Source: a virus
DNA length: 49,847 nucleotides
IMG/VR virus record: IMGVR_UViG_3300034062_006955
Span: 1 to 49,847 of that record
Reading direction: 5' to 3' (one strand)
Made by a program: the position numbers and the translations under genes
Notes under the pieces: model-generated
Seen by the model: only the letters and a program-made list of their open reading frames with translations
Told to the model about the DNA's origin: nothing
Databases searched by the model: none
Part shown: piece after piece, positions 3,608 through 13,075 of the stretch
Position numbering within the stretch: the first letter of the stretch is position 1
Layout of the letters: every line of letters starts with the position of its first letter

Positions 3608-4306
3608 ATGACTTTCGGACAAGTAAAATCCATTATTGAAAAAAATCTTATTGAATCGTATAGAAACGAGAAAGAATTTAAAAAATCTTTAAGAGAATTT
3701 AAGGAAAATGTTCTCAACAGTAAGTCGTTGTCCAAGGTTTATAACTTGTATGACCAACTTTCAACTTCTCAAGGTCTGAGTGCTTCAGATGCTAATGAAT
3801 ATGTTAATGAAGGTATTGGTCTTATCCAAAGATTATTACCAACAATCAAAATGCCAAAAAGTATATCTGAAAGTAATGACAACTTATATTCAGACATTGA
3901 TACTTTAGTTTATACAAATAAGCTCAATATCCACGAAAGATTACAGGCTAGAAAAAATATCATCAAAGTTTTAACTTCAGAAAACAAAATTGTTAAAGAA
4001 TCTATACAAATTCCAATTAGCACAATGGTGAAAATCGCTAACCAAACTTTGGAAAATTATGTGGATACTATGGACGAACAATCTAAAAAAACCTTTATTG
4101 AAATTCTTAAATCTGATGGTGAAAATTTAAAAGAAGGTTTTTCAGCACTTAAAGAAAAAACTATCGAAAAATTGAATTCGATTCTTGGCGAACAAAAAGA
4201 AAGTGATGTTATTGAAAAAATAACTGAAACAATTAACAAATTGAAAGAAGAAGAATTCAATCAAATTAACTATGTAAAATTAGTTACTTTAGAAAAGAAT
4301 TTATAA
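3608..4306 (+). CDS. Unknown head-module protein, 232 aa
   Basis: I do not recognise this family. The protein is mostly predicted helix, rich in Lys/Glu/Asn, with no signal peptide or membrane segment. The C-terminal half (about 150-225) looks like an extended coiled coil (EKTIEKLNSILGEQ region). It sits where T4 carries the small prohead-core genes 67 and 68, between portal and protease, so a core or assembly role is a positional guess only. Its last 6 bases overlap the convergent bS21 gene. Confidence 0.7.
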   Translation: MTFGQVKSIIEKNLIESYRNEKEFKKSLREFKENVLNSKSLSKVYNLYDQLSTSQGLSASDANEYVNEGIGLIQRLLPTIKMPKSISESNDNLYSDIDTLVYTNKLNIHERLQARKNIIKVLTSENKIVKESIQIPISTMVKIANQTLENYVDTMDEQSKKTFIEILKSDGENLKEGFSALKEKTIEKLNSILGEQKESDVIEKITETINKLKEEEFNQINYVKLVTLEKNL

Positions 4307-5062: not shown

Positions 5063-5779
5063 ATGAAGAAATTAAGAATTCTTGAGGCAAATGAATCAGG
5101 TCATGGTATTTTGATTGAAATGGATGCTGGCTATGTGTCTCCTCGTGAAGATATGAATGCAGCTTTTTTAAGAGAGGCTGTCAAAATGGATTATAAAAAT
5201 CCTTTTGAATTTTATGCTGTTCTACAAAAATACGACACTCCAAACAGAAATGGTAGATTCTATCCTGAAAGAATACTCAAGAGAGAGGCTGAAAGATATA
5301 AAAAAATGATTGCTAAAGGTTTATCAACTTCAGAATTAAACCATCCAGAATCTTCTTTAATTGACCTCGATAGAGTTTCACACATAATAACAGACGTATG
5401 GTGGGATAAGAATATATTAATGGGTAAATTAAAATTACTCACTTCACCAGGTTTTCATGAAAGGGGTATCGTTTCAACTAAAGGTGACCAAGCGGCTAAC
5501 TTAATGAGACAAGGGGTAACCATGGGTGTTTCATCAAGAGGTGTTGGTTCCTTGAAAAAAGTTGGGGAAAGAAATGAAGTTCAAGACGACTTCGAGTTAA
5601 TTTGTTTTGACTTAGTATCCTCACCTTCAACACCTGGTGCTTATCTTTTCTCAGATGTGAACGAAAGAGAAAAATATGAAGAAAATCTTGAAGAAGAAAA
5701 GAAAGTTTCACAACCTGAGAAGAATTTAGACAAGTCTATTGATTTGATGAAAAAACTTACCGATTTTTTAGGTAAATAA
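5063..5779 (+). CDS. gp21: Prohead core protease (gp21-like, family S77)
   Basis: Serine protease that matures the prohead by cutting the scaffold, capsid and internal proteins after (L/I)-x-E. The His-containing ELNHPESS motif (near residue 95) and the nucleophile motif MGVSSRGVGSL (near 154-164) match the T4 gp21 fold. Length (238 aa) is close to T4 gp21 (212). The N-terminus itself carries I-L-E followed by Ala (residues 6-9), compatible with self-processing. The C-terminal 40 residues are a charged helical tail. It is followed 11 nt later by a small gene and then scaffold and capsid, the usual T4 order. Confidence 0.9.
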   Translation: MKKLRILEANESGHGILIEMDAGYVSPREDMNAAFLREAVKMDYKNPFEFYAVLQKYDTPNRNGRFYPERILKREAERYKKMIAKGLSTSELNHPESSLIDLDRVSHIITDVWWDKNILMGKLKLLTSPGFHERGIVSTKGDQAANLMRQGVTMGVSSRGVGSLKKVGERNEVQDDFELICFDLVSSPSTPGAYLFSDVNEREKYEENLEEEKKVSQPEKNLDKSIDLMKKLTDFLGK

Positions 5780-5790
5780 AAATTAAAATT

Positions 5791-6000
5791 ATGGACGAAA
5801 AGTATTTTGTTGCTAAAATCACCTATGACCTTCCTGATGAAAACTCTGGTAAAATTAAAAAAATTAGAGAAGAAAAATTAGTTAAAGGTTTCTCAGTAAC
5901 TGATGTTGAAGCTAAGGTTACAAAAAAATATGAAGGGTTTTCTCACGATTGGAGAATAACCTCAGTTTCAGAGAGTAAAATCGATGAAGTAATTGATTAA
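5791..6000 (+). CDS. Small protein, 69 aa, DUF4494-like pattern
   Basis: A compact alpha/beta protein. The layout (YFVAKITY, then GKIKKIREEKLVKGFS, then VTDVEAKVT) resembles the DUF4494 family seen in Bacteroidota and their phages: an aromatic-rich first strand, a 'GK..' turn, and an 'EA' helix. Function is unknown. It follows the protease by 11 nt, probably on the same transcript, and ends just before a strong terminator. Confidence 0.65.
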   Translation: MDEKYFVAKITYDLPDENSGKIKKIREEKLVKGFSVTDVEAKVTKKYEGFSHDWRITSVSESKIDEVID

Positions 6001-6006
6001 AAATTT

Positions 6007-6033
6007 AAAGTGGTCCTAACGACCACTTTTTTT
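6007..6033 (+). terminator. Rho-independent terminator after protease unit
   Basis: Perfect 9-bp stem AAAGTGGTC / GACCACTTT (6007-6015 and 6021-6029) with loop CTAAC, followed by a T run. It separates the protease unit from the next motif-led gene. Confidence 0.88.
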
Positions 6034-6045
6034 ATTTTATAGAAC

Positions 6046-6053
6046 TATTTATA
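6046..6053 (+). promoter_or_regulatory. Candidate late-promoter motif, 106-aa gene
   Basis: TATTTATA lies between the terminator and the ATG at 6068 (14 nt gap), as expected for a new transcription start. Confidence 0.55.
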
Positions 6054-6067
6054 ATAAACTTTTTAAA

Positions 6068-6388
6068 ATGATTTTTATTATAAATTACAGAGACCAAAGT
6101 TCAACCCTATTAAGTGCGACTACGTGGTCAGACGCTTCAGCATACGCTGAAGGAACTGGTAAAGAAATTTCATCTATTAATCAACCTAACTACGGAACGT
6201 TGGTTTTGAATTCCCCTCTATCCAGCAATTTTTATCAATTAATACTTAAAAACAATTCAACAGGTGTTTCCACAAGCTATTTTGTTTTTGAGGAAGATTA
6301 TCAATCTTTAACCACTTGGATTGAATCACAAGTAAATACAGAGGTGACACAACTATTCCACCAACAAAGAAATTACGTTTCATTATAA
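6068..6388 (+). CDS. Unknown protein, 106 aa
   Basis: Not recognised. It begins MIFIINYRDQSSTLLSATTW and appears to be a small beta-rich protein with Ser/Thr/Asn-rich loops. It has no signal peptide: the hydrophobic start is only five residues. It stands as its own unit between a terminator and the next late motif, inside the head module, so a minor virion role is possible but unsupported by any motif. Confidence 0.6.
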   Translation: MIFIINYRDQSSTLLSATTWSDASAYAEGTGKEISSINQPNYGTLVLNSPLSSNFYQLILKNNSTGVSTSYFVFEEDYQSLTTWIESQVNTEVTQLFHQQRNYVSL

Positions 6389-9978: not shown

Positions 9979-9988
9979 ATGCCCGATA

Positions 9989-9996
9989 TATTTATT
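9989..9996 (+). promoter_or_regulatory. Candidate late-promoter motif, 397-aa gene
   Basis: TATTTATT ends only 3 nt before the ATG at 10000. It lies between the terminator and that ATG, which favours 10000 over the earlier ATG at 9979. Confidence 0.5.
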
Positions 9997-9999
9997 AAC

Positions 10000-11193
10000 A
10001 TGATAAAGCAAACATGGAATATTAGTAGTGAAGAAAAATATAGAATATTAAACCTTCATGAATCTGCAACAAAAAATTTATATCTCCTTAAGGAACAAGA
10101 AATAAACCCTGAGGATAATGAAAATGTCATTCGTAGTAATGATAAGAATGACAAATTTATTTATTTAGTATTCCAACCTGAAAAATCAACACAAGTTAGT
10201 GGTCCATTTGATTGGGACTCACCTTATGTTGTTGTTGCGACTGACCGTAATAATGTGTATGTTGCTGAAGTAGCTGAAAAAGATTCTAAGAATATGCCGA
10301 TTAAATTCAGAGTTGAATTAAATCGACCTTTACCTGTATGGAATCCAAAAAATGTGAATAATAATGAATTCAAATTTTCTTTCATAAAAACAGGAAATAA
10401 AAATTATAATTGGAATTTTGAATATAATAATAAAACAAAAAATGCATTACTTGCGGAAGATGAGCTTTATTTATACTATGGAGTTATTTTCAGAGGTAAT
10501 CTCATGATTGCTCCTGTAAAGAAAGAAGGTCCAACCAATACTTGGTCTTTTGGTTATGAACAAGAAGGAGTGATAGATTTTAAAGATATTCCTTTAAATC
10601 AAGAAACTGAGTTTGTGCCAAGGTATAATGTAATTATTAATAAAAATACGTATATTGGATTAGTAGTTCCAACCACCTTTGGATTTTTTGCAATTCCAAA
10701 AGGTAAAGAAACACCACCACCTAATAAAATACCAATTCCAACACCACCTCCTCCTCCATCAAATTTTGGTGATAACTTTGGTGATAATATTTCTTTCCCT
10801 AACGCATCTACAACAGAAAAGCCTGAATACCAAGCTTTTGTTAAGTTTGTAAATGGAAATGATATTTCGAATTATAAATTTATAATTCAAGCTTCAGCAT
10901 CAAAATGTAGAGCTAAAAGCATTGAGGGACAAGGAGTAACACAATGGAAAGATGATAAAACGACATATCCTGACGTAGTAGTTGATAAAAACGCTGATAT
11001 GTCTGATATTGGTAATCTCAATTTAACTAAAGCAAGAGCACAGCATTTGAAAGACTTTTTGATTAAAAATATTCCAAAACTAAAAGACGCTAATTTTGAA
11101 GTTATTGCACAAGGTTCTATAGGAACATGTGGAAGTGAAGAAGAAAATAGAACACAAAGAGTTGTGTCTTTGAGTGTTCAAAAAATAAAATAA
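10000..11193 (+). CDS. Protein with Pro-rich linker and OmpA-like C-terminal domain
   Basis: I choose the ATG at 10000 (397 aa) because the ATG at 9979 overlaps the terminator T run and the late motif lies between them. Residues 8-22 (ISSEEKYRILNLHES) form a helix ending Leu-His-Glu followed by Ser, a possible prohead-protease site. Residues about 50-235 are an unrecognised beta-rich region. Residues about 243-262 are a Pro-rich linker (IPIPTPPPPP). The last 120 residues, with NLNLTKARAQHLKDFLI and a closing ENRTQRVVSL, resemble the OmpA-like peptidoglycan-binding fold. There is no signal peptide, so a virion-associated wall-binding protein is more likely than a host envelope protein. Moderate confidence in the domain. 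Confidence 0.6.
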   Translation: MIKQTWNISSEEKYRILNLHESATKNLYLLKEQEINPEDNENVIRSNDKNDKFIYLVFQPEKSTQVSGPFDWDSPYVVVATDRNNVYVAEVAEKDSKNMPIKFRVELNRPLPVWNPKNVNNNEFKFSFIKTGNKNYNWNFEYNNKTKNALLAEDELYLYYGVIFRGNLMIAPVKKEGPTNTWSFGYEQEGVIDFKDIPLNQETEFVPRYNVIINKNTYIGLVVPTTFGFFAIPKGKETPPPNKIPIPTPPPPPSNFGDNFGDNISFPNASTTEKPEYQAFVKFVNGNDISNYKFIIQASASKCRAKSIEGQGVTQWKDDKTTYPDVVVDKNADMSDIGNLNLTKARAQHLKDFLIKNIPKLKDANFEVIAQGSIGTCGSEEENRTQRVVSLSVQKIK

Positions 11194-11202
11194 TTTATTT
11201 TT
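11181..11202. terminator. AT-only bidirectional hairpin between convergent genes
   Basis: AAAAATAAA / TTTATTTTT around the ATAA loop spans the stop codons of two convergent genes and gives a T run on either strand. The stem is weak because it has no GC pair. Confidence 0.35.
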
Positions 11203-11662
11203 TTAATTCTTCTGCAACTTTTATCTGTAAAATGAATTTATCGGAATATTCTGTAACAAATGTTGTAAAATATATTTTTGATAAGACATGAGGTATTTCG
11301 AATGGTTTTTCCCCATCCCATTTATAATCTTCATTTTTTGTTTGGATATATTCAATATCTTTTAAAGACATGTTTCTTTTATCTAATTTTGAGAAAGATT
11401 CATCGTCTAAGAAATATACTCCATCCACTTGACTATACCATTTTTGAAAATATTCTTTGTAATCAAAAATCACTTTTTGAATTTTGGGGAAATATTGTAA
11501 ATCAATTTTATTTGGTGCGAAATCTATTTCTATCCCTAAAGTTTTAAATTCTTGTTTCGATTTATTTACACTATCAACATTCTGATAAAATATCTTTCCG
11601 GTTTTTTGTGCAAACAAATTGATAGATGTGAATAATACTAAAGTTAAAAGTAATGTTTTCAT
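11195..11662 (-). CDS. Secreted cargo (moron) protein, 155 aa
   Basis: The N-terminus MKTLLLTLVLFTSINLFAQ is a clear signal peptide (Lys, hydrophobic core, Ala-Gln cleavage region) of the kind typical of Bacteroidota. The mature 136 residues are soluble, rich in aromatic and charged residues, and belong to no family I recognise. It is the only plainly exported protein in the window, runs against the neighbouring gene, and has an exact host-type promoter instead of the phage late motif. This is the classic layout of a moron: a gene expressed independently to change the host envelope. Superinfection exclusion is one possible role; no direct evidence supports it. Confidence 0.75.
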   Translation of the reverse strand: MKTLLLTLVLFTSINLFAQKTGKIFYQNVDSVNKSKQEFKTLGIEIDFAPNKIDLQYFPKIQKVIFDYKEYFQKWYSQVDGVYFLDDESFSKLDKRNMSLKDIEYIQTKNEDYKWDGEKPFEIPHVLSKIYFTTFVTEYSDKFILQIKVAEELKK

Positions 11663-11677
11663 TGATATGATTTTTTA

Positions 11678-11708
11678 CAAAGATATGGAAATTATTATTT
11701 CCATCAAA
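11678..11708 (-). promoter_or_regulatory. Bacteroidota housekeeping-type promoter
   Basis: On the minus strand TTTG (11708-11705), 19 nt, then TATCTTTG (11685-11678), then 15 nt to the ATG. This matches the established -33 TTTG / -7 TAnnTTTG consensus exactly in sequence, with spacing in the usual range. Confidence 0.7.
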
Positions 11709-11735: not shown

Positions 11736-11960
11736 TTATTTGGGTAATCGACTTGAGTTCAACACACGTAATGACTTTGAAATTATTTCGGACTCTTCTA
11801 AAGTGAATAAATTTTTTTGATAACACATATTAATTGCCAAGCCAATCATATAAACTGATTGTTCTTCGCTAAGTCCATCTATAAGATTTGATATGTCAGT
11901 AGGTGAAAAATAAGAAATTGTCTCAAATAATTCCCCAATTGGTTGTTTTTTGTCTTCCAT
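11736..11960 (-). CDS. Unknown small protein, 74 aa
   Basis: Not recognised. An acidic all-helical protein (ISNLIDGLSEEQSVYMIGLA region) with no signal peptide. It lies upstream of, and on the same strand as, the secreted protein, and is divergent from the next plus-strand gene. The host-type promoter lies between it and the secreted gene, so the two are probably transcribed separately. Confidence 0.55.
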   Translation of the reverse strand: MEDKKQPIGELFETISYFSPTDISNLIDGLSEEQSVYMIGLAINMCYQKNLFTLEESEIISKSLRVLNSSRLPK

Positions 11961-11997: not shown

Positions 11998-12687
11998 ATG
12001 GAAAAAAAACAAATAAAAGAAGCGACTGGTGGTGGAAGTTCGGGAAGTTTTAAAGTTCCTGTTGTGTTAGCCCCTCAGAATTGGGAAAATGAACAATTAA
12101 GTCCGTTTGTTGAACCTGTATATAATTATACAAATGCAGAGTTGGCGTATGAAGAGGCTGATGGGGATTTTAAAGAAACACCAGCAAAAAGAACTGCCAT
12201 TGAAAGAAGAACAAAAAAATTATCTGCAGTTTCAAAATATTTGAAACAATTTTATACAGGTCAAAATGATGAAGAAGGTTCTGCAATTAATCCTACTATG
12301 AATGGTCTCCCATTGAAAGAGGAGTTTCTTAATGAAGATTTAGCAGTTTGGTTCGGCACAAAGAAAAAACCTAAAGGAAGTAAACAACCTAAAGGTCCTT
12401 GGGTCAATATTTGTAGAAAAGAAAATGGTAAACACCCTCCATGTGGTAGACCTGAGGCTAAAGATAAAGGATACCCAAAATGTAGAGCAGTTGGTGTTGC
12501 TGCAAAAATGAGTGCATCTGAAAAAAGGTCTGCTTGTCAACAAAAGAGGAGAGCTGAAAAAACTGAACCAAAAACAGGAACTGGTAACGCACCTACGATG
12601 ACAAGTTATAAGCCGAGAAACGAGGGAATTAAGAACTTGATTAGAAAAGTATTGAGAGAGAACACTAATCCAACTTCTTCAAAATAG
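11998..12687 (+). CDS. Basic Cys-containing protein with terminal L-x-E motifs
   Basis: The start at 11998 (229 aa) is chosen because the late motif lies between it and the upstream in-frame ATG (11950). The N-terminus reads MEKKQIKEATGGG: Ile-Lys-Glu followed by Ala fits the prohead-protease rule. Residues about 118-180 are a strongly basic region with four to five Cys (WVNICRKENGKHPPCGR, then YPKCRAVGVAAKMS). This pattern recurs in phages and large DNA viruses, but I cannot assign it a function. The C-terminus IKNLIRKVLREN is a short amphipathic helix ending Leu-Arg-Glu. A DNA-associated internal head protein is a reasonable guess. The end overlaps the convergent gene by 23 bases. Confidence 0.65.
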   Translation: MEKKQIKEATGGGSSGSFKVPVVLAPQNWENEQLSPFVEPVYNYTNAELAYEEADGDFKETPAKRTAIERRTKKLSAVSKYLKQFYTGQNDEEGSAINPTMNGLPLKEEFLNEDLAVWFGTKKKPKGSKQPKGPWVNICRKENGKHPPCGRPEAKDKGYPKCRAVGVAAKMSASEKRSACQQKRRAEKTEPKTGTGNAPTMTSYKPRNEGIKNLIRKVLRENTNPTSSK

Positions 12688-13075
12688 TTTTTAAGGAGTG
12701 TTGAATATTACTTCTGATTTCATCTTCTAAAAGTTGTCTCTCACCTTCGAGGACCTTATCAAAATCTTGAATAATTTCTTTATAACCATTATTATCTGAT
12801 AGGTAAACTGAATAACTATAAACGTGGTTTATCAAGTTTATTGTATGGTTTTCTATAACAATAAACATATTTTTTTCCTCATTTTTTATAAACCTCTTAA
12901 ATGAGATTGGTGCAAACGTAAGTTTCGAATTTGGGTCTGATATTAATTTTTTACAAATTTCGATAGTTATTTTTTCCTCTTCAGGTATTGGGAATGAAGG
13001 GTCAAACCTTTCTTTAAGATTCAGATATAATTTGAACAATAGACGAGGGATATATCCCACAACTTTATTTTCCAT
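12665..13075 (-). CDS. Unknown protein, 136 aa
   Basis: Not recognised. Begins MENKVVGYIPRLLFKLYLNL and is mostly helical and charged, with no clear membrane segment beyond a short hydrophobic stretch near the start. It is convergent with the preceding plus-strand gene (23-base overlap) and downstream of the 154-aa gene. TATATTTG lies 4 nt before the ATG but is too close to be a convincing promoter. Confidence 0.55.
   Translation of the reverse strand: MENKVVGYIPRLLFKLYLNLKERFDPSFPIPEEEKITIEICKKLISDPNSKLTFAPISFKRFIKNEEKNMFIVIENHTINLINHVYSYSVYLSDNNGYKEIIQDFDKVLEGERQLLEDEIRSNIQHSLKTILKKLD

Follow-up and report, generated by a model that had tools for sequence, protein, structure and literature searches.

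A secreted protein under a host-type promoter and its convergent tagged partner form an exchangeable gene pair in T4-like phages

The DNA analysed here, hereafter called the window, comprises the 49,847 nucleotides of IMG/VR virus record IMGVR_UViG_3300034062_006955 and encodes a T4-type terminase, a portal protein, an S77 prohead protease and a Gp23 capsid protein. A preliminary description of the window had interpreted a small secreted protein, here named S, as a moron standing alone among late genes. Comparison with related phages identifies S as one half of a polymorphic two-gene cassette that is swapped as a unit with the convergent gene T (Table 1). S is probably the immunity or superinfection-exclusion partner of T. 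We propose that T is an envelope-acting protein packaged in the virion and that S is its early exported cognate, comparable to Spackle of phage T4; we assign this reading a probability of about 0.45. The host probably belongs to the Bacteroidota because of the promoter type and because the capsid protein is similar to that of phages infecting Flavobacterium and Rhodothermus, although good capsid matches also come from phages of other hosts. In this way, one unannotated "moron" leads to a rule that can be tested across many uncultured phages: one strand encodes a tag with a variable tail, and the opposite strand encodes, under a host-type promoter, the exported protein that matches it.

Table 1 Features of the T/S region (positions in the window)
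Feature	Position	Strand	Basis or remark
Empty site, stretch absent in L097	9981..11732	.	blastn
Putative late-promoter motif TATTTAT before T	9989..9995	+	Recurs before T, scaffold and 229-aa genes
T, 397-aa partner gene	10000..11193	+	Convergent with S in every relative seen
Constant 33-aa tag of T	10000..10098	+	LHE and LKE|Q protease-type sites; alignment
Exchange unit, unrelated sequence in L087	10100..11633	.	blastn
OmpA-like C-terminal domain of T	10768..11190 (approximate limits)	+	AlphaFold2 model and Foldseek
S, gene of the 155-aa secreted protein	11195..11662	-	Open ORF and signal peptide
Host-type promoter of S, TTTG-N19-TATCTTTG	11678..11708	-	-33/-7 pair; unique in the window

The secreted protein S and the tagged protein T

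The S reading frame is open, and its translation begins with the predicted signal peptide MKTLLLTLVLFTSINLFAQ, with the cut before K. The signal peptide is kept in the homologues, as judged by a hydropathy rule and not by a trained predictor. Thus, the description of S as a signal-peptide protein was correct, and so was the statement that its mature part belongs to no known family: searches of Pfam, PHROGs, NCBIfam and PADLOC gave nothing above threshold. The matches of S to bPH_3 (0.011) and of a homologue to Imm57 (0.15) lie below the cut-off and were dropped. The PDB yielded no match by sequence or by fold, the structure model of S being of moderate quality (pLDDT 67). The family of the window's S has 10 further distinct members, each located beside the same T type and sharing 35 to 64% identity with the window's S in the mature part. 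Two cysteines occur in nine of the 11 aligned members and are both missing in the window's S and in that of L255, as would look like a disulfide lost as a pair. Capture of S from a host genome had also been considered; neither S nor the T tag has a relative in the collection of genome contigs, which speaks against it. Likewise, the collection of named phages contains neither S nor T nor the tag. S does lie on the minus strand, but the description of it as standing alone holds only in part, since the next gene (11736-11960) has the same orientation and S converges with T.

The start codon of T is most likely the ATG at 10000 and not that at 9979, because the relatives begin at this methionine. 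T consists of the constant tag, a middle part common to many types and a variable tail. The tag ends with (L/I/V/M)xE in 47 of 53 T proteins, a count that admits V and M besides L and I, and LHE is found earlier in the tag in 50 of 53. Such sites resemble those of the T4 protease gp21, which cleaves after L/I-X-E (PMC9026906). In 15 long records, strong matches to the tag are confined to the T/S cassette, and a general tag used throughout the phage was therefore rejected. For the window's T, AlphaFold2 gave a model that is weak overall (pLDDT 61), but its C-terminal domain was matched by Foldseek to the peptidoglycan-binding domains of OmpA, Pal and MotB with probabilities of up to 0.99 and weak E-values (best 0.03). 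An OmpA domain exceeds the Pfam threshold in the T protein of L087, and a TseH-like domain does so in a single T protein, that of L038. No recognised enzyme domain was found in the OmpA-like tail of the window's T, and Pfam gave no match to the MuF domain for this protein or 10 relatives.

Pairing and exchange of the two genes

In related T4-like phages, the T/S site directly follows the capsid gene. The stretch from there to the genes for a 74-aa and a 229-aa protein is either nearly empty (about 300 bp) or carries one or two T/S cassettes, sometimes together with other genes, which come and go. In the window, a single base separates the stop codons of S and T, and the homologues of S end convergently against a T homologue in every case seen. 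Among 75 distinct T/S pairs, at least 16 T-tail types and 18 S types can be distinguished, and the two classifications agree with an ARI of 0.81. In the first set, the ARI with the S type was 0.88 for the T tail vs 0.22 for the T N-domain. The window's S family is combined with a single T family in all 11 cases, and the T genes of L255, L232 and L244, which were found by the tag alone, are accompanied by this S family. Furthermore, several phages possess tandem cassettes, each with its own S.

The pairing was also observed in a separate set of previously unused contigs found by the tag alone, which contains 46 T genes with room downstream. The hydropathy rule called a convergent secreted gene beside all 46; the calls in L233 and L235 clearly concern another gene and were removed, leaving 44 of 46. 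Because the same allele is present at several of the loci, the number of independent events is smaller than that of the loci. A TAnnTTTG box is present at 31 of the calls. Under the same rule, 33 of 874 control genes (3.8%) showed the arrangement, nine of them with the box.

The correspondence between T and S is not without exceptions. Each of three T-tail clusters is found with two different S types, and one S type is shared by two tail clusters. No S is evident beside the T genes of L139, L233 and L235, and L064 has a secreted gene in a different arrangement. Of the tails found with more than one S type, the homologous OmpA-type ones of L051, L087 and their relatives are accompanied by two unrelated S types of 129 and 136 aa. 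Since the T N-domains also differ between the L051 and L087 groups, S may be matched to the middle of T rather than to its end. Profile comparison detected no relationship among eight S families, and a single family uniting all S types was therefore rejected. In other phages, a protein with a CAP domain and a C92 amidase lipoprotein are among the S types. The latter, a C92 papain-like amidase (9.1e-29) encoded at 5681-6283(-) of L038 beside the TseH-like T, is enzyme-like and does not look like a plain inhibitor.

Close relatives reveal both the exchange and the loss of the pair. L087 shares about 93% DNA identity with the window up to 10099 and from 11634 on, and blastn found nothing in between. 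One breakpoint falls where the tag ends (codon 33) and the other at about codon 10 of S; thus, the promoter of S lies outside the swapped part. In L097, the entire T/S pair is missing and the flanks, which are 98.2% and 90.5% identical to those of the window, are joined (blastn). S is therefore accessory, has its own promoter and is absent from a close relative, as expected for a moron. This part of the preliminary description stands, but S does not behave as a single independent unit: it is gained, lost and swapped together with a partner that carries the late motif.

Two promoter classes

The host-type promoter sequence reported just upstream of S was confirmed. The ATG of S follows 15 nt past its end, and the pattern occurs once in the window vs 0.06 times as expected from 100 simulated sequences with the window's dinucleotide transitions. 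A -7 box of this form, TAnnTTTG, has been documented for the flavobacterial primary sigma factor (PMC9723704). The same promoter precedes homologues of S that are only about 39% identical as well as unrelated S genes at the same site; some S genes without a host-type promoter of their own are placed after the 74-aa gene. The spacer that separates -33 from -7 contains a perfect hyphenated palindrome, TGGAAATAATAATTTCCA, at 11686-11703; a role as operator was dropped because most relatives do not keep it. The looser pattern TTG-N17..22-TAnnTTTG was found within 80 nt upstream of only two window genes, S and 12665-13075(-). The latter is a conserved 136-aa gene with the promoter TTG-N20-TATATTTG, whose TAnnTTTG box is kept in 26 of 28 relatives; possibly, this is a further early gene in a neighbourhood of late ones.

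Among the relatives, the promoters of S and T fall into two classes. TAnnTTTG is present within 60 nt upstream of 45 of 52 S genes and of none of 52 T genes, as compared with 0 of 84 capsid and 1 of 42 scaffold genes. At least two of the S genes that were missed (L084 and L085) are start-codon misassignments, in which the promoter is seen on direct reading. By contrast, TATTTAT precedes 48 of 52 T genes, all 42 scaffold genes and all 72 genes for the 229-aa protein; the window's S lacks it. In two long relatives, the motif occurs before 24 of 111 and 23 of 142 genes and at none of the intragenic control positions, and full host-type promoters are rare there (1 and 7). In the window, it is located 9-28 nt before many start codons, for instance those at 3608, 5063, 11998 and 34889. 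TATTTAT appears to serve this group of phages as late promoter.

Proposed function and alternative explanations

According to the mechanism that we propose, T would be made late and directed into the prohead core by its constant N-terminal tag, which would be cut off by a gp21-type protease to leave mature T in the virion. Mature T would then act on the envelope of the next cell, in the window's phage via the OmpA-like peptidoglycan-binding domain. S would be read by the unmodified host polymerase soon after entry, exported and able to neutralise T of the matching type. As Spackle does against the gp5 lysozyme of T4, S would thereby shield the envelope of the infected cell and exclude sibling phages. 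Because the T tail and S are exchanged together, each S would be expected to fit its T. Superinfection exclusion is the likeliest role of S. If S confers immunity to T, the pair would provide a molecular basis for allele-specific superinfection exclusion among closely related wild phages. The tag is a testable candidate for a capsid-targeting signal. Points against the mechanism are the exceptions to the T/S correspondence, the S genes without a host-type promoter of their own and the fate of the T4 internal proteins: these are delivered to the cytoplasm, a destination that fits poorly with an envelope-acting T.

T4 Spackle (gp61.3) binds and inhibits the lysozyme domain of gp5 in the periplasm (PMC7677548). 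S, too, is encoded by a T4-like phage, small and predicted to be exported; early synthesis and action on a virion protein in the periplasm would be expected of it. However, no relationship to gp61.3 was found in the PDB by sequence or by fold; moreover, the polymorphic S is exchanged along with the protein that it presumably targets, the product of a tagged head-region gene rather than gp5. T resembles the T4 internal proteins IPI-III and Alt, which carry capsid targeting sequences (PMC9026906), in being apparently late and accessory, in having an N-terminal propeptide-like tag ending with (L/I)xE (V and M were also counted) and in the presence of a prohead protease, here of the S77 type. It differs from them in the length of the tag (33 vs about 10 aa), the envelope-type domains and the secreted-gene partner, and its packaging is putative. 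The MuF polymorphic toxins of temperate phages are also encoded in the head module with a constant N-terminal part and a variable C-terminal domain, and members of polymorphic-toxin families are accompanied by immunity proteins (PMC5576092). T belongs to T4-like phages and lacks a Pfam MuF match, and its partner is convergent, apparently exported and under its own host-type promoter.

A constant N-terminus with a variable C-terminus and a covarying neighbour is what polymorphic pairs display, and bacterial effector-immunity pairs of type VI secretion and other polymorphic toxin systems have variable C-terminal domains and neighbouring cognates too; the TseH-like domain of one T is a further likeness. 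In contrast to these systems, T and S are phage-borne and convergent with separate promoter classes, and delivery would occur by the virion. We tentatively extend the parallel, with less confidence than we place in the mechanism itself, to T4-like phages, probably of Bacteroidota, that would exclude one another by exchangeable virion-delivered envelope effectors (T) and exported immunity proteins (S) under host-type promoters.

Two other explanations appear unlikely, and about equally so. S could be a moron in its own right, expressed early, exported and without any tie to T, whose product prevents superinfection or hides a receptor, in agreement with its signal peptide, host-type promoter and accessory presence. 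Yet S is nearly always paired and swapped with T, and a single receptor-blocking role might predict a common S family, which profile comparison of eight S families did not reveal. Alternatively, S could be a helper of T, both acting on the envelope, for instance if S prepared or anchored what T acts on in the course of infection or lysis. This would agree with the strict pairing, and the OmpA-like T tails together with the CAP and C92 amidase types of S all suggest the envelope; the different promoter classes rather suggest separate times of action, and antagonists are more typical of polymorphic matched pairs.

It is still less likely that T and S are unrelated cargo hitchhiking at a recombination-prone site between conserved flanks. 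The T tail adjoins S, so that recombination in the shared flanks could link both genes without a functional tie, and other genes do come and go at this site, where neighbours are linked by position. Linkage does not by itself explain why a tagged late gene and an exported gene with a host-type promoter are combined recurrently: the T(+)/S(-) order, together with the tag, the secretion signal and the two classes of promoter, is found in no fewer than 16 types and also in tandem cassettes, vs the low background among the control genes. Finally, it is very improbable that S is synthesised late as part of the virion, like the products of the structural genes among which it is located, given its signal peptide and a host-type promoter in place of the late motif.

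Other tagged genes were observed as well. Three loci (L069:9513-10491, L034:5189-6770 and L147:1833-2878) show the mirror image of the T/S pair, with a secreted gene on the plus strand that converges with a tagged gene on the minus strand. The secreted gene is preceded by a TATCTTTG box where this was checked, and the minus-strand gene begins with a different tag, MKKxIRLxExDLINIVxxIxxEQ, which suggests a second tag class following the same logic. Moreover, L101 and L104 (6003-6974(-)) carry a 323-aa gene at the same site, which starts with MDLNENIFKIKKIMGLLSEQ, also ending with LxEQ, and contains an HExxH-like motif.
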